Assembly: GCA_947627045.1 (NCBI GenBank)
Contig: CANQUM010000002.1
Span: 1 to 64,000 of the forward strand
DNA length: 64,000 bases
Direction of reading: 5' to 3'
Source of the DNA: an uncultured Clostridia bacterium
Lineage (GTDB): Bacteria; Bacillota; Clostridia; Oscillospirales; Ruminococcaceae
How positions within the stretch are numbered: position 1 is the stretch's first letter; each line of letters opens with the position of its first letter. This document shows, in pieces, positions 13,524-27,304 of the stretch. Both the position numbers and the translations under genes were made by a program. The notes below the pieces were generated by a model that was not told where the DNA came from, did not search any database, and worked only from the letters and a program-made list of their open reading frames with translations.

Positions 13524-15605
13524 ATGAGAACTATGAAATTTGAGGAATGGAACGGATTTAATCACGGCACATGGGAAAGAGAAATTAATGTCCGTGACTT
13601 TATACAAAAGAACTATGAGCCTTATGACGGAGACGATGAATTTCTTGCCGGACCTACGCAGGCGACTAAAGACCTTTGGGAGCAGGTAATGGATCTGTCA
13701 AAAAAGGAACGTGAAGCCGGCGGAGTTCTTGATATGGACACCAAAATAATTTCAACTATCACCTCTCACGGACCGGGCTATCTAAACAAAGAAAAAGAAA
13801 CCATAGTAGGCTTTCAGACAGACAAGCCGTTTAAAAGGGCGCTTCAGCCGAACGGCGGAATTCGTATGGCAATGAAGGCTTGTTCAGAAAACGGCTATGA
13901 AGTCGATCCTGACATATGCAAGTTTTACACTGTTCACAGAAAAACTCACAATCAAGGAGTGTTCGACGCATATACTCCTGAAATGAGAGCCTGCCGTTCC
14001 AGTCATATTATAACGGGTCTCCCAGACGCTTACGGCAGAGGAAGAATTATAGGGGATTACCGAAGGGTTGCACTTTACGGGGTTGACAAGCTGATTGAGG
14101 ACAAACAAAATCAGAAGGATTCAACAAGAATTACAATGTACTCCGATGTTATCCGCGAGCGTGAAGAGCTTTCTGAACAGATAAGGGCATTAGGAGAACT
14201 TATTGAGCTTGGCAAGATTTACGGCTTCGACATTTCTAAGCCTGCTAAAAACGTACAAGAGGCTATCCAGTGGACGTATTTTGCGTACCTTGCCGCTGTT
14301 AAAGAGCAAAACGGTGCGGCAATGTCGCTGGGAAGGACCTCAACATTCCTTGACATTTACGCACAACGCGACCTTAAAAACGGCACTTTTACAGAGGAAC
14401 AAATACAAGAGTTTGTTGACCACTTTATAATGAAACTGCGGCTTGTAAAGTTCGCAAGAACTCCCGAATATAATGAGCTGTTCTCAGGAGATCCTACATG
14501 GGTCACAGAATCAATTGGCGGTATCGGCGTTGACGGACGCCATATGGTAACTAAGATGTCGTTTCGGTATCTTCACACGCTTGAAAATCTGGGTACAGCC
14601 CCCGAACCTAATCTTACGATTTTGTGGTCGGTCAAGCTGCCCGACAACTTCAAAAGGTTTTGCGCTAAAACATCAATTGAATCCTCTTCAATCCAATATG
14701 AGAACGACGACCTTATGAGGGTTACGCACGGAGACGATTATGCGATCGCCTGCTGTGTATCTTCAATGAGAATAGGCAAGGAAATGCAGTTTTTCGGAGC
14801 AAGGGCTAATCTTGCAAAATGCTTGCTTTACGCTATAAACGGCGGTGTTGATGAAATTTCTATGAAGCAGATAGGGCCTAAATACAGACCTATCACTTCT
14901 GAATACCTTGACTACAAAGAAGTTATGGATAAATTTAAAGATATGATGAAGTGGCTTGCGTCAGTTTATGTAAACGCTCTGAATATCATTCACTATATGC
15001 ACGATAAATACTGCTATGAGAGAATACAAATGGCTCTTCACGACAAGAAGGTAACAAGATGGTTTGCAACAGGTATTGCAGGGCTTTCGGTTGTTGCTGA
15101 CTCGCTCTCAGCAATAAAGTATGCAAAGGTCAGACCGATAAGGAACGAAAAAGGCATAGCTGTAGATTACGAAATTGAAGGAGATTTTCCTAAATACGGC
15201 AATGATGACGACAGAGTAGATGAAATCGCAAGCAGTATAGTGCATATCTTTATGAACTATATAAAAGGTAACCACACCTACAGAGGCGGAATACCTACGA
15301 CCTCAATTCTTACAATAACATCAAACGTAGTTTACGGACAAAATACAGGTTCAACTCCTGACGGACGAAAAGGAGGAGAAGCATTTGCACCCGGTGCAAA
15401 TCCTATGCACACCCGTGATAAAAATGGTGCTGTTGCGTCGCTTAAATCTGTTTCAAAGCTGCCGTTCAAAGACGCTCAGGACGGAATATCCAATACATTT
15501 TCAATTATACCCGACTCGCTTGGAAAAGATAACAAAATATACGTCGGCGATATAGACGTTGATATAGAGCTTTCAGAAACCGACAGCTTTAACAGAGAGT
15601 ATTAA
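13524..15605 (+). CDS. pflB: Pyruvate formate-lyase catalytic body lacking the C-terminal glycyl-radical domain
   Basis: [57 protein letters not shown]; no RVSGY. Confidence 0.92.
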
Positions 15606-15629
15606 TATAAATTCAAACGGAGGATCATT

Positions 15630-15863
15630 ATGCGAAATTCTGATGAAAGAATAGATGATATTGTTAATATGCTTGACGATTTTATGTCAAAAAAAGGCGG
15701 GCATATGAATATTAAGGTCAATAATAACGGAGGAGTTAAATATAAAAATAATGAAAAAAAGGTTAAGACCGCTAAATCACTCGACTGTATCGAAGGAACT
15801 ACAGCCTGCGGTTCTCCGACACTGTCTGAGGGCTTAGATGTTGAAAACGAACTGCTTCAATAA
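15630..15863 (+). CDS. Small ORF resembling the N-terminal half of a glycyl-radical domain, without the glycyl motif
   Basis: [32 protein letters not shown]. Confidence 0.7.
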
Positions 15864-15897
15864 ACAAAAAATTGAAAGAAATTTAGGAGGAATAAAT

Positions 15898-16149
15898 ATG
15901 TCAAGAGTAAAGGCAAATAAAGAACAGATAGATAATCTTGTTTCGATTTTAGACGGCTACGCAGAAGAGGGCGGTCATCATTTGAATATCAACGTACTAT
16001 CCCGTGAAACTCTGATAGACGCACAAAAGCATCCTGAAAAATATCCGCAGCTTACTGTTCGAGTATCGGGATATGCTGTAAATTTTGTCAAGCTCACAAA
16101 GGCACAGCAGGATGAAGTCATTTCAAGAACATTTCACAACAAACTTTAA
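15898..16149 (+). CDS. Stand-alone glycyl-radical subunit (GrcA/YfiD-like)
   Basis: [64 protein letters not shown] before ATG 15898. Confidence 0.93.
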
Positions 16150-16190: not shown

Positions 16191-16940
16191 ATGCTTGGTC
16201 ACATACATTCAATAGAGAGCTTTGGAACAGTAGACGGTCCGGGCGTAAGAATGGTTATTTTCACAAAGGGATGCCCTATGCGGTGTCAATATTGCCACAA
16301 CCCCGACACATGGGATATGACAGGCGGAGAAGATATAAGCGTAAAAGAAATCATTTCAAAATATAACTCAAAAAAGAGCTTTTACAGAAACGGCGGAATA
16401 ACCGTCAGCGGCGGCGAACCGCTTATGCAAATGAAGTTCGTAACCGAGCTTTTTAAAGCCGCTAAGGCACAGGAAATTCACACTTGTATTGATACATCAG
16501 GCATTTTATTCAATAAAGATGATAAAAAGAAAATCAAGGAGTTCGACAGACTTATAAAATACACCGATTTGGTACTTCTTGATATAAAGCATATAGATGA
16601 TAACGAGCATAAAAAGCTGACCGGCTTCTCAAACAAAAACATACTTGACTTTACAAAATACCTTGAAGAAAAAAACATTCCGGTTTGTATAAGGCACGTA
16701 GTCGTTCCCGGCATAACGTTTAATGAACACTATCTTTTTGAATTGGGCAAATATATCGGAACGCTAAAAAATCTCAAATCAATAGACGTACTGGCTTATC
16801 ACGATATGGGAAAATCAAAGTACGAAGCTTTGGGAATAGCGTATCCGTTAAAGGACACTCCCCCGCTTTCCAAAGAGGACGCTTTAAAAGCGAAAAAGAT
16901 TATTTTAAGAGGGATAAAGATAACAAGAAAAAAGGATTAA
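16191..16940 (+). CDS. pflA: Pyruvate formate-lyase activating enzyme
   Basis: VDGPGVRMVIFTKGCPMRCQYCHNPDTWD radical SAM CxxxCxxC. Confidence 0.95.
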   Translation: MLGHIHSIESFGTVDGPGVRMVIFTKGCPMRCQYCHNPDTWDMTGGEDISVKEIISKYNSKKSFYRNGGITVSGGEPLMQMKFVTELFKAAKAQEIHTCIDTSGILFNKDDKKKIKEFDRLIKYTDLVLLDIKHIDDNEHKKLTGFSNKNILDFTKYLEEKNIPVCIRHVVVPGITFNEHYLFELGKYIGTLKNLKSIDVLAYHDMGKSKYEALGIAYPLKDTPPLSKEDALKAKKIILRGIKITRKKD

Positions 16941-16950
16941 TATTAAATAT

Positions 16951-16980
16951 GGCTGATGAAAATTTCATCAGCCGTTTTTT
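16951..16980. terminator. Terminator between convergent pflA and hydF
   Basis: GGCTGATGAAAATTTCATCAGCCGTTTTTT. Confidence 0.85.
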
Positions 16981-18184
16981 AATAGGAAATTTTATCTAAA
17001 ATATTATTAAGATATGCGATTATCACTCCGTAGTTTGACATTGGAACGCCTTGCGATTTTGCCCTGTCAATTCGCGACAGCACATACTTTCTGTTAAACA
17101 TACACGCTCCGCACTGAATCACCAAATCATACTCTGTTAAATCATCAGGAAAATCAGGTCCGCTGACAATATCTACTGTAAGCCCCTCGCCGACCTTTTT
17201 TCTTAACATTCTCGGTATCTTTTCTCTGCCAATATCCTCTGCTAAAGGCGCATGGGTGCAAGCCTCTGCTATAAGAACTTTTGACTTCTCAGTCAGAAGT
17301 TCTACTGCTTCGGCAGATTTTATATAATATTCCAAATCGCCCTTATACCCTGCAAACAGAGTTGAAAAGGAAGTCAGCATACTTTCTTTGGGCTTTTTAT
17401 CATAGACTGTTTTGAAAACCTGCGAATCGGTAATTATCAGCTTAGGAGGATAAGACAACGCCTCTAATGTTTTATCAAGCCTGTCGGTAGTGCAGCTCAT
17501 AACAAGACATTTTTTATCAAGCAAATCACGAATTGTCTGAACCTGAGGAAGTATAAGCCTTCCCTTAGGCGCCTGAATATCCTGAGGCATTACCAAAAGC
17601 ACCAAATCACCGTCGCCGACTAAATTTCCTGTTATACTTCTGCTCCCGAAATCCTCAGGTATGAGCCTTATAAGCGTATCTTTGAATTTTTCGGTTATAC
17701 TTTCATTTTCAGCGCTTACAATCAAAGGCTCTTCACTTGACTTTCCTAAAATTTCAGACCTTATTTGTGAAATTTCACCGCTTGACATAGTATCCGCTTT
17801 GCTTATCACATTCAGAACAGGCGTACCCTTTTTTTTAAAATAATCAAACCATTCAAGTTCTTTTTCTATATCTGTATCGGAAAACAATATTACGGCAACA
17901 TCTGTTCTTTCGGCTGCTTTTTTTGTCTTTTCAACTCTGATCTTACCCAGCTCGCCTACATCGTCAAAGCCTGCTGTGTCGATCAGCACGCATGCGCCTA
18001 TTCCCGCAATCTCCATAGACTTGAAAACAGGATCGGTCGTTGTACCTGCAACATCTGAAACTATTGATATCTGCTGTTTTGTAAATGCGTTTATAAGAGT
18101 TGATTTTCCTGCATTGCGCTTTCCGAAAAATCCTATGTGAAGTCTGTCTGACCTTGGTGTTTCGTTTAAAGTCGGCATAAACAT
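16979..18184 (-). CDS. hydF: [FeFe]-hydrogenase H-cluster maturation GTPase HydF
   Basis: GFFGKRNAGKSTLINA, DTAGFDDVG, VIQCGACMFNRKYVLSRI; next to hydG/hydE. Confidence 0.95.
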   Translation of the reverse strand: MFMPTLNETPRSDRLHIGFFGKRNAGKSTLINAFTKQQISIVSDVAGTTTDPVFKSMEIAGIGACVLIDTAGFDDVGELGKIRVEKTKKAAERTDVAVILFSDTDIEKELEWFDYFKKKGTPVLNVISKADTMSSGEISQIRSEILGKSSEEPLIVSAENESITEKFKDTLIRLIPEDFGSRSITGNLVGDGDLVLLVMPQDIQAPKGRLILPQVQTIRDLLDKKCLVMSCTTDRLDKTLEALSYPPKLIITDSQVFKTVYDKKPKESMLTSFSTLFAGYKGDLEYYIKSAEAVELLTEKSKVLIAEACTHAPLAEDIGREKIPRMLRKKVGEGLTVDIVSGPDFPDDLTEYDLVIQCGACMFNRKYVLSRIDRAKSQGVPMSNYGVIIAYLNNILDKISY

Positions 18185-18217
18185 TCCGCCTTTCAAAAAT
18201 TATTGTTCCGTCTTAAA

Positions 18218-19639
18218 TTAGAACCTGAAATCACGCTCGCCCGAATGAATTCTTTCAATTCTCTCTTTGGCAATTTTTCTGGTCTTTTCATTTGGAATAA
18301 GCTCAAGCTGTTTTTGAATCAAAGCCTCTCCCTTTCGTCTTGTATCCTCACCGGCATAATCCTCAAGATACTCCTTTAAAGTCATAAGAGCGTTCGGCTG
18401 ACAGCAGTTTGCTATCTGACCCGATTTGCACAGGCTCATAAACCTGTCGCCTGTTCTGCCCTCATGATAACAAGCCGTACAAAAACTCGGAATATAACCC
18501 ATTTCTAAAAGCCAGTTTACGACCTCGTCTAATGTTCTTGTATCAGTAACATCAAACTGAGCAGAATTTTCCTCCTCAGGCTCGGGGTCAACATAACCGC
18601 CGACGCTTGTTCGAGAGCCTCCGCTGATTTGAGAAACCCCAAGCTTTAAAACTCTTTCTCTTGACTTTTTCGACTCACGGGTTGAAATTATCATTCCGGT
18701 ATACGGAACGGCAATTCTTATAACTGCTACCAGTTTTGCAAAAATATCGTCTGAAATTGCATTTGAAAAATCAGCTTTGTCAATGTCATCGGCACCGCAT
18801 ATTCTCGGCACTGAAATGGTATGAGGACCTACTCCGTGAACAGCTTCCAAATGCTCTGCGTGCATCAAAAGACCGACAAAATCGTATTTATACATCTCAA
18901 GCCCGAACAAAACTCCGATTCCTACGTCGTCTATACCGCCCTCCATTGCTCTGTCCATAGCCTCAGTGTGGTAAGCGTAATTGTGCTTAGGACCTGTTGG
19001 GTGCAAAAGCTCGTAATCGTGCTTGTTATAAGTCTCTTGAAAGAGTATATATGTTCCTATCCCTGCTTCCTTGAGCTTTCTGTAGTTTTCTACTGTCGTT
19101 GCAGCAATATTTACATTAACTCGTCTGATAGCACCGTTTTTATGATTAATTGAATAAATGGTTTTTATACTCTCTAAAATATACTCAATAGGATTATTCA
19201 CCGGGTCCTCGCCCGATTCTATGGCAAGTCTTTTATGTCCCATATCCTGAAGGGCAATCACCTCTTTTTTGATTTCCTCCTGAGTGAGTTTCTTTCTTGC
19301 AATATGCTTGTTGCAGTGATGATACGGGCAATATGTACAGCCGTTTACACAGTAGTTTGAAAGATACAGCGGTGCAAACATTACTATTCTGTCGCCGTAC
19401 AATTTTTCCTTTATCTCCATTGCCGTTTTTTCCATAGCTTCAATACATTCCGGTATTTCACATTCAAGCAGTACTGCCGCTTCTCTATGGCTTAATCCCT
19501 TGCAGTCTCTTGCCCTATTGATAAGCGACATTACATATTCCTTATCGTCCTTACGCTTTTCTGCCTCTTTAAGCGTCTCTAAAATCTCAGCGTCGTTGAT
19601 AAATTCCTCTGCCTTCATAGACTTAACATCATACTTCAT
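18218..19639 (-). CDS. hydG: [FeFe]-hydrogenase maturation radical SAM tyrosine lyase HydG
   Basis: APLYLSNYCVNGCTYCPYHHCNK; C-terminal FCTACYHEGRTGDRFMSLCKSG. Confidence 0.96.
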   Translation of the reverse strand: MKYDVKSMKAEEFINDAEILETLKEAEKRKDDKEYVMSLINRARDCKGLSHREAAVLLECEIPECIEAMEKTAMEIKEKLYGDRIVMFAPLYLSNYCVNGCTYCPYHHCNKHIARKKLTQEEIKKEVIALQDMGHKRLAIESGEDPVNNPIEYILESIKTIYSINHKNGAIRRVNVNIAATTVENYRKLKEAGIGTYILFQETYNKHDYELLHPTGPKHNYAYHTEAMDRAMEGGIDDVGIGVLFGLEMYKYDFVGLLMHAEHLEAVHGVGPHTISVPRICGADDIDKADFSNAISDDIFAKLVAVIRIAVPYTGMIISTRESKKSRERVLKLGVSQISGGSRTSVGGYVDPEPEEENSAQFDVTDTRTLDEVVNWLLEMGYIPSFCTACYHEGRTGDRFMSLCKSGQIANCCQPNALMTLKEYLEDYAGEDTRRKGEALIQKQLELIPNEKTRKIAKERIERIHSGERDFRF

Positions 19640-19693: not shown

Positions 19694-20752
19694 TCAATTA
19701 TCAATTGTCAATTCCTGATAATCTCCCCTGTCGGTAACTATCTCATATCCAATGCTTTTCATTCTGCTGCTAAGACACGCCTTACACTGTGCAGATTCAT
19801 CGCCTGTGCAGATTTTGTTGTCATACAAAAGATATTTCTGCCTTACCTCCGTCGGCGAGAGATTTGGCATAACAACATTTGCTCCTGCCAAAATCCCCTG
19901 CTCCCTGCCGATCAGCGAAATTGTTCCGAGCGCCGTAGTTGCAGGAAGAAGCACATTCGGCTTCATAAGCCTTATAAGCGACAGCATAAAAAGCGTATCC
20001 TCAAGACTGCCCTTTTTCTTATCTCTGAACGGAGTATCGTGCTGTGGTATAAACGGTCCTATCCCGACCATCTCGGGGTCAAGTCTTTTGATAAACAGCA
20101 TATCCTCAGCTAAGTTTTCTGCCGTCTGAAATGGCGAGCCTACCATAAATCCGCAGCCTGTCTGATAGCCTATTCTTTTTAAAGCCTGCAGACATTCCTG
20201 CCTGTGCTCTGCTTTTAATCTTTTAGGGTGAAGCTTTGCATAATGCTCAGTATTCGCCGTCTCGTGGCGAAGAAGATACCTGTCAGCACCTGCATCGAAA
20301 AGCCTTTGATAGCTTTCCTCACTTCTATCGCCCAATGAGAGAGTTATCGCACAATCAGAATGTGCATTTTTTATGCTTTTTACAATATCACATAAAATTT
20401 CATCAGTGAAGAAGCCGTCCTCACCGCTTTGCAGTACGAAGGTTCTGAAACCAAGTTCATACCCCTCGTCAGCACACCTTAGTATATCCTCCTTGCTAAG
20501 ACGGTAGCGTTCAGCATTTATGTTTGAGCGTCTCAAACCGCAATAGTAACAGTCGTTTTTGCAATAGCTTGAAAATTCGATAAGACCTCTTACAAAAATC
20601 TTCTTGCCAAATACCCTGTCAGCCTCTTCTCTTGCCAGCTTTGCAGAAAACTCTCTGTCCTCTTTTGTATATGTACCGATAAGCTGTGTAAATTCGGTCT
20701 TTGATAAAGCTCTTTCATTTTTCAGCTTTTCAATTAATTCTCTGTTATTCAT
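19694..20752 (-). CDS. hydE: [FeFe]-hydrogenase maturation radical SAM protein HydE
   Basis: GLIEFSSYCKNDCYYCGLRRSN; operon context. Confidence 0.95.
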   Translation of the reverse strand: MNNRELIEKLKNERALSKTEFTQLIGTYTKEDREFSAKLAREEADRVFGKKIFVRGLIEFSSYCKNDCYYCGLRRSNINAERYRLSKEDILRCADEGYELGFRTFVLQSGEDGFFTDEILCDIVKSIKNAHSDCAITLSLGDRSEESYQRLFDAGADRYLLRHETANTEHYAKLHPKRLKAEHRQECLQALKRIGYQTGCGFMVGSPFQTAENLAEDMLFIKRLDPEMVGIGPFIPQHDTPFRDKKKGSLEDTLFMLSLIRLMKPNVLLPATTALGTISLIGREQGILAGANVVMPNLSPTEVRQKYLLYDNKICTGDESAQCKACLSSRMKSIGYEIVTDRGDYQELTIDN

Positions 20753-20771: not shown

Positions 20772-21032
20772 TTACAGCTTTGAATAAACCGTTTTTACTG
20801 TTATATTATCTATCATTCCCAGCTTACCCGAAATCGCACCTATTACATCATTCGGAGCGTCAACAACAACGCTTATTACATTGACGTTTTTCTTCTGATA
20901 CGGTATACCCATTCTGCCAATGATATACTGAGAATAATTATGCAGAATTTTATTAAGACGTTCTGTCTGTTCTATCTCCTCTACGATTATCGCTATAATA
21001 GCAAGTCTTGTTTCGCTGTTTTTTACCTCCAT
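20772..21032 (-). CDS. TM1266-family putative regulator of iron-only hydrogenase
   Basis: ETRLAIIAIIVEE...HNYSQYIIGRMGIPYQKKNVNVISVVVDA; ATG at 21032 with AGAGG RBS. Confidence 0.85.
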   Translation of the reverse strand: MEVKNSETRLAIIAIIVEEIEQTERLNKILHNYSQYIIGRMGIPYQKKNVNVISVVVDAPNDVIGAISGKLGMIDNITVKTVYSKL

Positions 21033-21053
21033 ACTTAACCTCTTTTCTAAATC

Positions 21054-21085
21054 AAAAAATCCTTTCACCAAAAGGCAAAAGGATA
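21054..21085 (-). terminator. Leader intrinsic terminator upstream of the hyd operon
   Basis: Minus strand ATCCTTTTGCCTTTTGGTGAAAGGATTTTTT. Confidence 0.8.
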
Positions 21086-21230
21086 GAATTAACCCGCATA
21101 CCAAATCAAAAAACGATTCGATAAAAGCATTGCTATACTCTCGCCTTGCAACTCAGAATAAACCTTTGTTATCAGAACGATTTATGTTTTTTAAACGCTC
21201 GCAGTCAGGACTTATATCCTTTCTGTTTAC
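21054..21230 (-). ncRNA. Candidate cis-regulatory leader RNA of the hyd maturation operon
   Basis: Segment 21078-21085 can pair with 21215-21222 or with terminator arm 21059-21065. Confidence 0.55.
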
Positions 21231-21236
21231 GAATAT

Positions 21237-21265
21237 ATTTTAGCACAGATGAATGGCAATGTCAA
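21237..21265 (-). promoter_or_regulatory. Promoter TTGACA-17-TAAAAT for the hyd operon
   Basis: Minus strand TTGACATTGCCATTCATCTGTGCTAAAAT. Confidence 0.8.
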
Positions 21266-21337: not shown

Positions 21338-22468
21338 TTACCTTATAAGCTTTAACGTCTTACTCCATTTGCCGAAATACTTTCTGCCGTTTTTAATCTT
21401 ATATGCTCTTACCTTAATAAAATATTTTTTCTTATTAAGCTTCTTTAATGTAATCGTCTTTTTGTTAGTAAACTTCTTTTTGGCTTTCTTGAATTTTTTG
21501 TTTGCCGACCATTTAACCTGATAGCCCTTTGCTTTGCTGACTTTCTTCCAAGAGATTTTAGCTTTTCTCTTTCCGCCCTTTTTCAGAAATACTCCACTAA
21601 CCCTTGCCGGTTTTTTAGTTGATGACTGCTTTATCAAAGAATTTGACGGTGCTGATTTTTTTGATGAGCTTTTAGGCGGATTGAACTTTAAAATGTATTT
21701 ACAGCTATTATCATGTTTAGATATTCTTATATAATATATACCCTTATCTAAAGTATAACTGAACTTTTTAGTTTCATCTGAAAAGACGCCAACAGTAGTG
21801 TAATTTGTTATATCATTTAAATTATTATCAAATAAAGTAAATATTATATAATATACATTAGAATCATAGACAGAAACATAAAAATCATATTTAGTTGGTT
21901 TGCCTATATATATTTTATAATAATCATATTCATCTTTTTTTACACTTGTTATAGTTCCATTTATTGTAGAACCGTTGCTTACCGACTGTGCCTGAAAATA
22001 TGTATCGTTAGGTTCAATTTCATTAGAATTGGCTGATGTAAAACTGGCTTTTACTCTATAACCCCCTGAATAATAAGGATCCCAAGAAGCATTATATTCT
22101 GATATTCTTAAATAATAAGTACCTTTCTCTAACCACTCAGCAAATACCTCGTTTTCAGGATTACCACTGCTTGCATAATATGTACTAGTACCATATATAG
22201 AATTATAATCTGAGTCCAACACATCAAAATACAACTTTCCAAAAGATTGCATATCAATGGTTAATTTACCTGTTGATGAGGTATATATAGGAATATAATC
22301 ATACTCGCTTTTATTATCGTCGTAACCTATATAGCCGTTCACCCATACGCCGTTAGTTTTGAGTTCAGGTTTATTATTTACAATATCCTCCGCACCAACA
22401 GGCAATATCCCGACTAAACCAACAACTATAACAAGAGTTGTCAATATACTTAAAAATCTTTTTGTCAT
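21338..22468 (-). CDS. Secreted protein with PPC-like beta-domains and Lys-rich Fn3-like C-terminus
   Basis: Signal peptide; EPNDTYFQAQSVSNGSTINGTI; ISWKKVSKAKGYQVKWS…KYFIKVRAY. Confidence 0.75.
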   Translation of the reverse strand: MTKRFLSILTTLVIVVGLVGILPVGAEDIVNNKPELKTNGVWVNGYIGYDDNKSEYDYIPIYTSSTGKLTIDMQSFGKLYFDVLDSDYNSIYGTSTYYASSGNPENEVFAEWLEKGTYYLRISEYNASWDPYYSGGYRVKASFTSANSNEIEPNDTYFQAQSVSNGSTINGTITSVKKDEYDYYKIYIGKPTKYDFYVSVYDSNVYYIIFTLFDNNLNDITNYTTVGVFSDETKKFSYTLDKGIYYIRISKHDNSCKYILKFNPPKSSSKKSAPSNSLIKQSSTKKPARVSGVFLKKGGKRKAKISWKKVSKAKGYQVKWSANKKFKKAKKKFTNKKTITLKKLNKKKYFIKVRAYKIKNGRKYFGKWSKTLKLIR

Positions 22469-23011: not shown

Positions 23012-24448
23012 CTACCTAGTTTTCGCCTTTATAATTTTAGACCATTTGCCGTTTGACTTACGCATTTCACCGCTTTCAGACTTATACGTTTTATATGCCC
23101 TTACTTTAATATAGTATACTTTCTTTGACTTCAAACCCTTAATAATTTTAGAGCTTTGGTTAGCTTTTACAAAAACCACCTTTTTGCCTTTTTTCATTTT
23201 TCTATTAAGTCCGCATTTTATCTCATACCCTGAAACACCGCTTATTTTTTTCCATTTAACCTTCAGCCGTCTTTTCTTTGAAGTTTTTGTAACCTTCTTG
23301 ATTTTAGCCTGTTTCACCTTTGGTTTTACAACCTTAATAACCTTGCTTGGTGCGGGTGAAATGCTTGCACTTGTACTGATGTGAGGCTTTTCAGAAGCAG
23401 GCTGGTCTTTTATATTATTACTTGAATTTCCCGTATTTGTTTTGTCGGAGCTATCAATGGGATCAGGCTCTTTGGTTATAAGAGTATAATCTATTCCGTT
23501 TTGCTTGGCATATTCCTCAATCGTAGAACCCGCATTGCAGATTATTTTAAAATCGCTGTACTTATTACCGTTTTCGTCGTAGCCTAAGCATTGCGGCTCA
23601 AGAACAACATCATAAGAATTAATAGTAATGCTCCTTAACGACTCACATCCAGCAAAAGCTCTGTAGCCGATAGTTTCAATATTCCTGTTAAGACTAACTG
23701 TATTCAGCATTTTACAGTTTAGAAAAGCCTCAGAAGCTATATAGGTTAAATCAGACGGCAACATAATACTCTCTAAATATTCATTTCCCTCAAACGCATT
23801 TAATCCTATTCCATCTAAAACAACATCATCCATAGGTGTGAAAAGCGAATCATCCTTGCTGACCGTGTAATAATTATATAATGTAAATTCCTTTGCTGAA
23901 CCAGTATATCTGTAAAGCTCATAACGCCCTGAAAATTCATCTAATAGCGAATATGTAAATACCAAATCGGGAGCTTTTATTACTCTTATATAATATTTAC
24001 CGCTGTTATCAGGATTAAGAAGCTGTGTTTTGTAGTAGTATACCTCACCCTTCTTTAGCTTCTGTACCATTTTTGTATACGGAACTTGCCCTTTAACAGA
24101 CGGGTCATAAAAATCAAACTCAACATACTGCAGCTCGTTTTTATCACTGTCATAAAGCGTGGCAACAGGCTCATAATAATTATACTCTTTTTCAAAAAAC
24201 GCTCCTACTTTATATTTAACACCCATAGCTTCAAACAGATAATATCCGTCCTCAGGAGCGGTAAAGCTCGATAATGAATAACTATTACTCTCGACTGATT
24301 TTTCGTAAATAATACCGCTTTCAATATGCTCTGCAGAAATAAAATCTATTTCACTGTCTGCTCCTAAAACCATCAATGACGAATCTGCATAAAATACAGT
24401 CATAAACAGTAAACACATCAAAGAAAAAACTGTTAATGCTCTCTTCAT
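23012..24448 (-). CDS. Secreted BspA-type leucine-rich repeat protein with Lys-rich Fn3-like C-terminus
   Basis: GIGLNAFEGNEYLESIMLPSDLTYIASEAFLNCKMLNTVSLNRNIETIGYRAFAGCESL; C-terminal VKWKKISGVSGYEIKCG...YYIKVRAY. Confidence 0.8.
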   Translation of the reverse strand: MKRALTVFSLMCLLFMTVFYADSSLMVLGADSEIDFISAEHIESGIIYEKSVESNSYSLSSFTAPEDGYYLFEAMGVKYKVGAFFEKEYNYYEPVATLYDSDKNELQYVEFDFYDPSVKGQVPYTKMVQKLKKGEVYYYKTQLLNPDNSGKYYIRVIKAPDLVFTYSLLDEFSGRYELYRYTGSAKEFTLYNYYTVSKDDSLFTPMDDVVLDGIGLNAFEGNEYLESIMLPSDLTYIASEAFLNCKMLNTVSLNRNIETIGYRAFAGCESLRSITINSYDVVLEPQCLGYDENGNKYSDFKIICNAGSTIEEYAKQNGIDYTLITKEPDPIDSSDKTNTGNSSNNIKDQPASEKPHISTSASISPAPSKVIKVVKPKVKQAKIKKVTKTSKKRRLKVKWKKISGVSGYEIKCGLNRKMKKGKKVVFVKANQSSKIIKGLKSKKVYYIKVRAYKTYKSESGEMRKSNGKWSKIIKAKTR

Positions 24449-24643
24449 TTTTCCTCCAAATACCAACGATTGACATTCAAACTACTACTTTACGCATTTT
24501 TATTATACAATATTATAGTACTTTCGTCAAACTAATAAAAGTATATTTTGATTAATTTTATATTGAAATATTTGAGTAAATATGTTAGCATTAATCTATA
24601 AACAAATGTAATTTAGATCAAAAATAAGAAAAGAGGTAAAAAA

Positions 24644-27304
24644 ATGAAAGCAAAAAGAATACTTTCAGGGCTGATAAGCGCAGTTGTTGCAATATCAGCA
24701 ACGTTCAGCATGGTTTCTTTTACAGCAAGTGCTGATGAAACTTTTGATGATTTGAATCAAGAGCAAATCACTGCCGCTATGGGAGCAGGCTGGAACTTGG
24801 GTAATCAGCTGGAGGCTACCAATGAGGCCGGAGAGCCAAATGAAACAGCATGGGGCAACCCGGTAATTAGAAAAGAACTCCTGCAGACAGTAAAAAAAGC
24901 AGGATTCAAATCAGTAAGAATCCCTATTTCCTATTTAACTAAAATAGGTCCTCAGACAACTTATAAAATTGACGAAGCATGGCTTAACCGTATTAAGGAA
25001 GTTGTAGACTATGCAATTGAAGAAGATCTTTATGTAATCATCAATATGCACGCAGACGGCTATTATGATACTGTTAAAGGTGCGTGGCTTGATTGCTCAG
25101 CGTCATACCAAACTACTATCGTGAATAAATTTAAAGCCTGCTGGAAGCAGATTGCTGAAAAATTTGCAAACTATGACGAGCATCTTATCTTTGAGTCAAT
25201 GAACGAAGTAGGCGCTTCAGGAACTCCTACTGAAACTGTTTATAACAACATAAACAATTACAATCAAGTATTTGTTGACACTGTACGCCAGACAAGTGAA
25301 AACAATTCTAAAAGATGGCTTTTAGTTCCTGGCTGGTACACAAACATTAACTACACGGTAGGAAGCTACTTTGCAATCCCATCAGATACCTACAGAGATA
25401 CATCTATTCCCGAGAGTGAAAAAAGAATAATGGTTTCTGTTCACTACTATGACCCTTGGGATTTCTGCGGAGACGACACAAGCGGATCATATTCGCAATG
25501 GGGAGATGACGGTAACCCGAACAAAAAGGTTAACTGGAACAGCGATGAAGACTATATGGAAGGTCAGCTCAAAAAGGTATACGACAAATTCGTATCAGCA
25601 GGCTATCCTGTAATAATCGGTGAGTACGGATGTATAAACAAAACCGCTACCGACGCTGCTAACACTATATACAGAGCACACTATGTAGGAACAATGTGTA
25701 AACTTGCAAAGGAATACGGCTGTGTACCGGTATACTGGGATAACGGAGCAGTAGGAAACAGTTTCGGACTTATCAACAGAAATACATACAAAATAGAACA
25801 GCCAGAAATGATAGACGCTATGATGGAAGTATATCTGACACCAAAGGAAAACCTGAGCAGATTCATCACATTCATATCCGAATTAAAGAGCGACAATTAC
25901 ACAACAGATACATGGAACGCAGTAGATACAGCACTAAAAACAGCAGAAGGTCTTGTAGAAGCTGAAGGCACATCAGATGAAGACTTAACAAAGGCATATG
26001 AAGACCTTAACACAGCATACTACAAGTTAATGGAAAATGATAGTGCAACAGACGAATATGTAGCAATAAGAAACGAAGATGAAATAGGAAACTCAATAGA
26101 ATTGTATGAAGAAGCAATTGCACTTGGACAGTCTCCTGAAGGATATGCAGTATCGCTAAAACCAGATATGATGAATGTTCTGTCATCAAAAGTACTAACG
26201 ATTAAATTCAAGATCACATCAGCTAAGAAGCCTGCAGCCGGTGATACTGTACTTAATTTAAAACCATTTGACACAAAAACATGGTCAGGCTGGAATGATA
26301 ACTTTGTAAAATTATCAGACTGCAAATATGATGCAGCAACAGAAGAATACACATACACAGTAGAATCAAAGAAGATATTGGATTCATATGAAGGCGGAAT
26401 TGAAAGTGGAGCAGATGGTATAAATCTTTACTATGGCATGGTTGTTGATAAAAATGGAAAAGTAGGAAATGCTCTTGATGAAGACGGCAATGCAATATTT
26501 GACAAGGATGGAGTAGCAATACAGTTGACATACTATTCGGCATCATATCCTATATCACATACACGTCATCACTATGAAGAAGGCTCATACACATTCACAG
26601 AGCCGACCTGTACAGAGCAAGGATACAGAGAGTATAAATGTACAGCATGCGGAGAAGTATATAAAGATATGTACAAAGCCAACGGACACACATGGGAAGC
26701 ATGGAAAACAGTAAAAGAAGCTACCTGCGGAGAAGCAGGAATACGTGAGCACACATGCTTGATAGATAATGTAACAGAACAGCAAGAAATAAAGGCAACA
26801 GGAAAACATAACTTTGTAAACGGCGTATGCACAGTATGCGGAGCAAAGGATATTATAGAGGAACCACATAAACCGGAGAATCCTGGCAATAACAACGGAA
26901 GCACAGTTAAGCCCGGAACACCTGGAAACAAGGTAACACCTACTCCAAAGACAAACGCTAAGGCAGATGCACAAAAGATAGTAAACAAGGCTAAGATCAA
27001 GAATCTTAAAGCTAGTGCTAAGGGCAAAAAGGTAACAGTTAAGTGGAAGAAGGCAAGCAAGGTTACCGGTTACATTGTACAGGTATCAGCTAAGAAGAAC
27101 TTCAAGAATATACTTGCAAAGAAGACCTTAAAGAAGAACGCAAAGAAGGTTACAATCAAGATTAAGAAGCTCAAGAAGGGCAAGACTTATTGGGTAAGAG
27201 TAAGAGCTTATAAGACTTACAAAGCTAACGGCAAGACCAATAAGGCAACAGGTTCTTGGAAGAAAATTAAATTTAAAGTAAATATAAGTGCAAAATCTAA
27301 ATAA
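24644..27304 (+). CDS. Secreted GH5-like endoglucanase with accessory domains and Lys-rich Fn3-like C-terminus
   Basis: GAGWNLGNQLEA, SVRIPISY, FESMNEV, VIIGEYG; signal peptide; CxxCG repeats; C-terminal VKWKKASKVTGYIVQVS. Confidence 0.88.
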   Translation: MKAKRILSGLISAVVAISATFSMVSFTASADETFDDLNQEQITAAMGAGWNLGNQLEATNEAGEPNETAWGNPVIRKELLQTVKKAGFKSVRIPISYLTKIGPQTTYKIDEAWLNRIKEVVDYAIEEDLYVIINMHADGYYDTVKGAWLDCSASYQTTIVNKFKACWKQIAEKFANYDEHLIFESMNEVGASGTPTETVYNNINNYNQVFVDTVRQTSENNSKRWLLVPGWYTNINYTVGSYFAIPSDTYRDTSIPESEKRIMVSVHYYDPWDFCGDDTSGSYSQWGDDGNPNKKVNWNSDEDYMEGQLKKVYDKFVSAGYPVIIGEYGCINKTATDAANTIYRAHYVGTMCKLAKEYGCVPVYWDNGAVGNSFGLINRNTYKIEQPEMIDAMMEVYLTPKENLSRFITFISELKSDNYTTDTWNAVDTALKTAEGLVEAEGTSDEDLTKAYEDLNTAYYKLMENDSATDEYVAIRNEDEIGNSIELYEEAIALGQSPEGYAVSLKPDMMNVLSSKVLTIKFKITSAKKPAAGDTVLNLKPFDTKTWSGWNDNFVKLSDCKYDAATEEYTYTVESKKILDSYEGGIESGADGINLYYGMVVDKNGKVGNALDEDGNAIFDKDGVAIQLTYYSASYPISHTRHHYEEGSYTFTEPTCTEQGYREYKCTACGEVYKDMYKANGHTWEAWKTVKEATCGEAGIREHTCLIDNVTEQQEIKATGKHNFVNGVCTVCGAKDIIEEPHKPENPGNNNGSTVKPGTPGNKVTPTPKTNAKADAQKIVNKAKIKNLKASAKGKKVTVKWKKASKVTGYIVQVSAKKNFKNILAKKTLKKNAKKVTIKIKKLKKGKTYWVRVRAYKTYKANGKTNKATGSWKKIKFKVNISAKSK

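Follow-up and report, generated by a model that had tools for sequence, protein, structure and literature searches.

A CUGA/RAAG hairpin in leaders of TM1266 and hydrogenase maturation genes of Clostridia as a putative new class of RNA switch

In an uncultured Clostridia bacterium of the Ruminococcaceae, the [FeFe]-hydrogenase maturation genes are preceded on the minus strand by a gene for a TM1266-family putative regulator (order TM1266-hydE-hydG-hydF) and, between promoter and TM1266 start, by a leader of ~200 nt. What could such a leader do, and what would act on it? The window analyzed here is a 64,000-nt stretch of contig CANQUM010000002.1 (assembly GCA_947627045.1); its locus is L001 in the comparisons below. 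A first-pass annotation of this DNA had placed a promoter at 21265-21237, a leader of this length before a TM1266-like gene starting at 21032, and an intrinsic terminator near the leader end. All of these were recovered, and conservation of the promoter extends to nine further species of the genus. The features of the locus are as follows.

21237-21265, minus strand: sigma-70-type promoter TTGACA-17-TAAAAT (11/12 consensus), conserved in 10 genomes
about 21230, minus strand: putative RNA start
21199-21232, minus strand: putative incomplete motif copy in tandem with the complete one, UCG-UAAA-[CAG]-AAAGG-AUAUAAGU-CCUGA-[CUG]-CGA, read from the sequence and conserved in the genus
21137-21184, minus strand: complete motif (model R1, 46.9 bits), the sole significant match in the genome
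21180-21178 and 21143-21141, minus strand: motif P1, UCG/CGA
21171-21168 and 21152-21149, minus strand: motif stem A, UAAC/GUUG
21175-21172, 21167-21163, 21156-21153, and 21148-21144, minus strand: motif loop strands CUGA, AAAGG, CUGA, and CAAGG
21133-21147, minus strand: antiterminator 5′ strand AAGGCGAGAGUAUAG, overlapping the motif 3′ strand and P1
21098-21123, minus strand: spacer hairpin UAUCGAAUCG..UGAUUUGGUA, between the antiterminator strands; stem kept with other bases in L008
21072-21086, minus strand: antiterminator 3′ strand CUAUCCUUUUGCCUU, including the terminator 5′ arm; 14 bp with 21147-21133
21084-21059 (hairpin) and 21059-21054 (U tract, U6), minus strand: intrinsic terminator, −13.5 kcal/mol, conserved in 10/10 genomes
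20772-21032, minus strand: TM1266-family putative regulator, 86 aa, ATG at 21032, TIGR03959/PF21699 member
19694-20752, minus strand: hydE (TIGR03956)
18218-19639, minus strand: hydG (TIGR03955)
16979-18196, minus strand: hydF (TIGR03918)

Two further observations concern the neighborhood. A pyruvate formate-lyase at 13524-16149 (plus strand) looks split into two open reading frames (ORFs), a long one combining PFL-like sequence with the opening half of a glycyl-radical domain (PF01228 positions 1-51) and a separate downstream one (15838-16146, plus strand) with PF01228 positions 34-106, including RVSGYA; a PflA-like ORF, read by eye, follows at 16191. On the other side of the operon, three secreted-looking proteins (21338-22468, minus strand; 23012-24466, minus strand; 24644-27304, plus strand) share a C-terminal Lys-rich, fibronectin-like repeat (WKKxSxxxGYxVxxxxxKxFKK...KxYxVRAYK), and the first of them had no match in Pfam.

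Folding of the leader outperformed shuffled sequences (z −2.3; as good in 1 of 200). By genome search the leader is unique within its genome, and homologous leaders occur in the nine other species of the genus at 83 to 97% identity. Their alignment revealed near-invariant blocks, among them AUCGUUCUGAU..AAAGG, CUGAGU..AAGGCGAGAG, and the terminator; the stretches in between vary and contain one-base indels. The spacer hairpin is maintained across the genus, even with the different stem sequence of L008. An internal hairpin previously proposed for this leader (AUAAAUC/GGUUUAU) is not conserved in the same alignment. The conserved heart of the leader, which the first-pass annotation missed, is a ~45-nt hairpin in the 3′ half (21184-21137), consisting of an outer stem (P1), a variable stem A of 3 to 4 bp flanked on either side by a CUGA/RAAG internal loop, and a capping hairpin. 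Leaders of TM1266 genes in other Clostridia display the same pattern, CUGA-[stem A]-RAAGG-loop-CUGA (or CCGA, UAUGA)-[stem A′]-RAAGG, and share no other alignable DNA with the window; in 199 relatives outside the genus, searching at the DNA level returned only short chance matches. A covariance model (R1) was built from 20 leaders, including that of the window, and then extended to 63 matches. In the extended alignment, nine pairs have 95% of their cells paired, eight of these pairs show double changes, and the covariation reaches 0.674, compared with 0.184 in shuffled alignments and at most 0.124 with slid partners. Because the seed leaders were selected by eye and the extended alignment was fitted to the model, most weight falls on the slid control and on the diversity of stem A, where CG, GC, AU, UA, and UG occur at equivalent positions. 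A Clostridium-type subset, aligned separately, likewise supported stem A, the capping stem, and the outer P1 (UCG/CGA, UUG/CAA, AUG/CAU). As judged by sequence comparison, this covariation is overwhelming and identifies the motif as a structured cis-regulatory RNA. An alignment of all subtypes with MAFFT (A2) was structurally inconsistent and was left out of the model, and a second model, R2, was dropped for finding fewer genomes than R1, probably as a result of stricter prefiltering.

CUGA facing RAAG permits C-G, U-A, and two purine-purine pairs; the motif thus looks like a short helix between two loops of tandem G.A type, with pseudo-two-fold symmetry overall. Complete tandem copies are present in three leaders (L072, L074, and L201) and probably in two more (L075 and L115). 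The window carries a single complete copy and, immediately upstream, the incomplete one, which falls below the model threshold and is a putative tandem copy. Searching 246 genomes of the class with R1 (E ≤ 0.01) yielded matches at 62 places in 58 genomes. Fifty of them are located just upstream of TM1266, hydE, hydF, hydG, or aspA (in one case a nifH-like gene), and the other 12, within genes or repeats, are false. The motif, which recurs before these genes across Clostridia, is common to many gut and soil members of the class.

How might this hairpin govern expression? In 49 of 61 motif leaders, a terminator at least as stable as −6 kcal/mol is placed between motif and gene, and the motif 3′ strand (RAAGGC plus ~10 nt) can pair with the terminator 5′ arm as an antiterminator. 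This duplex is more stable with the leader's own terminator than with exchanged ones (−11.24 versus −9.35 kcal/mol; z −6.1, 0/5000 permutations), and the preference persisted in permutations within subtypes (1/5000 and 2/5000) and in a shorter version of the test. In L061, for example, GAAGGUGUGAACGGAAA pairs with UUCUGUGCGUGCCUUUC, and L131 and L142 do the same with different bases. The corresponding duplex in the window, AAGGCGAGAGUAUAG (21147-21133) with CUAUCCUUUUGCCUU (21086-21072), comprises 14 bp at −16.2 kcal/mol against −13.5 kcal/mol for the terminator. A pairing between the terminator arm and the motif 5′ strand, which visual inspection of Clostridium-type leaders had suggested, was no better than permuted pairs (989/5000). 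The first-pass annotation had instead paired the terminator arm with a complement near the leader 5′ end in a P1-like stem, AAAGGAUA (21222-21215) with UAUCCUUU (21085-21078). The 8-nt complementarity is literally present, but only AAAGG/CCUUU (5/8 bp) is kept in relatives (L003 has AAAGGAUC, and L004 to L006 have AAAGG-UUUU), and the stem is not conserved. Enforcing it also gives the least favorable leader energy, −42.0 kcal/mol, versus −44.1 with the antiterminator and −48.7 with motif plus terminator. The covarying partner of the arm is 21147-21133. That annotation was right in proposing a structured leader controlling the operon by a terminator/antiterminator choice, which is conserved and covarying in related hyd leaders.

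The antiterminator takes up the RAAGG and P1 strand and is thereby incompatible with the outer portion of the motif. Covariation supports this mutually exclusive expression platform. As read from the sequence, in hydG and hydF leaders elsewhere the final RAAGG of the motif coincides in part with the Shine-Dalgarno sequence or lies next to it (L186, GAAAGGUGGAAAAACAAUG; also L205, L208, L209, and L234). The terminator and Shine-Dalgarno layouts agree, and thus a stabilized motif would mean genes OFF. The ON-switch polarity suggested earlier for this leader would then be reversed, since motif formation would conceal the strand needed for antitermination or, in other leaders, the Shine-Dalgarno sequence.

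The gene content behind the motif points to what may stabilize it. The true motif was present in 45 of 159 genomes with TM1266 but in only 3 of 87 genomes without it (p 5e-7, kinship ignored). Restricting the comparison to HydG-positive genomes left a modest association (42/132 versus 3/29, p 0.02, kinship again ignored). Four genomes found only in a scan of the phylum all encode PF21699 above cut-off. The three exceptions, with the motif before hydG or hydE and no detectable TM1266, are drafts (G386, 93% complete; G212, 97%; and one 65%), a number that assembly gaps could about explain. Operons devoid of hydrogenase maturation genes also start with motif and TM1266. In G077, a genome without HydG, the order is TM1266-FecCD-ATPase-NifH-like (L200 and L276); in G297, G365, and G287, TM1266 is followed by SsuA-like substrate-binding and permease genes of ABC type (L148, L167, and L233); and in G253 (L271), read by eye, by an ECF-like gene, whose product has no Pfam match, and NADH-hydrogenase-like genes. 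Two other genomes have the motif upstream of an ECF-type S-component gene (G702, L262; PF12822 just above cut-off) or directly before nifH/nifD-like genes, with TM1266-like genes elsewhere in the genome (G266, L237). A divergent TM1266 subfamily (L202, L207, L243, and L244; less so L233) accompanies a motif variant, CUAA/CUGA-CAGA..UCUG (UUUG in L233), a hint of coevolution. In these sequence comparisons, the TM1266 family is the constant partner of the motif, outside hydrogenase operons too, which favors a protein-bound element. Many TM1266 genes have no upstream motif. Four such leaders (L106, L134, L141, and L147) share a different, short palindrome over the ribosome-binding site, GUUAA-n-UUAACGAGG, which is possibly another control mode.

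TM1266 itself is annotated only as a putative regulator, and its structure was solved as "uncharacterized." The protein of the window is predicted to form a beta-alpha-beta-beta-alpha-beta domain (pLDDT 92), the closest structures being Thermotoga maritima TM1266 (2nzc) and then chains of the NikR C-terminal domain (TM about 0.8). The predicted structure thus has the NikR C-terminal sensor-domain fold. The ribbon-helix-helix DNA-binding domain of the NikR nickel regulators is absent, the 86-aa protein being the sensor fold only, and on this ground we propose that TM1266 acts on RNA, although it bears no known RNA-binding signature. The simplest reading of a regulator-like protein that lacks a DNA-binding module, is encoded first behind an RNA element, and follows that element into unrelated operons is that of an RNA-binding sensor, an assignment that we consider probable, with considerable room for doubt.

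The explanation that we favor as a whole, at a similar level of confidence, is a new-class cis-regulatory RNA switch held by TM1266 in autogenous feedback. With the motif held together, its 3′ strand would be unavailable, the terminator would form, and the operon would be OFF; with the motif released, the antiterminator (21147-21133 with 21086-21072) would form and TM1266-hydE-hydG-hydF would be transcribed. In the hydG and hydF leaders, whose Shine-Dalgarno sequence lies partly within or right beside this strand, the OFF state would be set at translation. The holding factor would be the protein of the TM1266 family, acting as a NikR-type sensor domain on its own, which would make the switch an autogenous feedback between protein and RNA that reports the status of metals or metalloclusters. 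A protein oligomer of two-fold symmetry would fit the pseudo-two-fold CUGA-stem-RAAGG repeat.

The strongest competitor, which we regard as possible but distinctly less likely, is a true riboswitch, with a metal or small ligand (for example, an H-cluster precursor, Fe, SAM, or tyrosine) recognized by the motif itself and TM1266 being simply a coregulated gene. Its layouts at terminator and Shine-Dalgarno sequence resemble those of OFF riboswitches, in which a 3′ strand is likewise shared by the sensor fold and the antiterminator or ribosome-binding site, although the motif differs from these in having no Rfam match and in being constantly tied to one protein family; the tandem copies, the invariant CUGA/RAAG loops, and the G386 and G212 drafts also fit. 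However, the core is small with few invariant bases, the genes behind it vary (hydrogenase maturation, FecCD, SsuA-like ABC, NifH-like, and ECF-like) with TM1266 as the one common companion, and the true motif is absent from 26 of the 29 HydG-positive genomes without TM1266. Binding by another protein, e.g., a ribosomal-type protein recognizing kink-turns or tandem G.A pairs, is improbable. CUGA facing (R)AAG beside a short stem is, by sequence alone, compatible with tandem sheared G.A pairs like those of kink-turns, but the motif has two such loops, arranged pseudo-two-fold about stem A, and this reading leaves unexplained both the co-occurrence with TM1266 and the confinement to TM1266 operons. 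Leader-peptide attenuation through ribosome stalling, for which the terminator/antiterminator pair might speak, is very improbable given the single-base indels of the genus alignment and a conservation that follows base pairs rather than codons. A constitutive terminator with a chance complement is scarcely credible: terminator-like sites are frequent by chance (9 found in the region versus 7.6 expected), but conservation across genera and the covariation of motif and antiterminator already contradict it.

Does the element belong to a known class? Rfam returned no family at gathering score for the window or for the leader (searched to E ≤ 10), in agreement with the first-pass annotation, which had found no match to the SAM, FMN, TPP, cobalamin, ZTP, THF, NiCo, or purine consensus motifs. 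Nineteen homologous loci gave only T-box, TPP, and tRNA hits on other stretches, and six loci searched at E ≤ 0.5 gave none. The PyrR, TRAP, and HutP attenuators of Bacillota offer a parallel, since there too the regulator gene heads the operon, the leader is the would-be target, and a terminator choice is made. The leader nevertheless scored below the Rfam cut-offs (PyrR, 18.7 versus 54 bits; L10 leader, 20.8 versus 44), and TM1266 is presumably unrelated to the PyrR, TRAP, and HutP proteins, to go by their folds. Open full-text literature on hydG, hydE, or hydrogenase maturation combined with riboswitches or RNA motifs, and on TM1266, held no description of the element, and the RNA surveys consulted do not mention the motif. 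On this evidence, the leader is a previously uncatalogued RNA switch of a putative new class.

Neither RNA-level control of hydEGF nor a function for TM1266 was found described in the open literature, and the RNA element ties them together and opens both to experiment. That TM1266 proteins are stand-alone NikR-type RNA-binding sensors, exerting widespread posttranscriptional control of [FeFe]-hydrogenase maturation, nitrogenase-like, and transport operons via the CUGA/RAAG hairpin, is a broader proposition on which we are evenly divided. The element is widespread among Clostridia, in transcriptional and translational versions, and would provide a handle on when hydrogenases get built.
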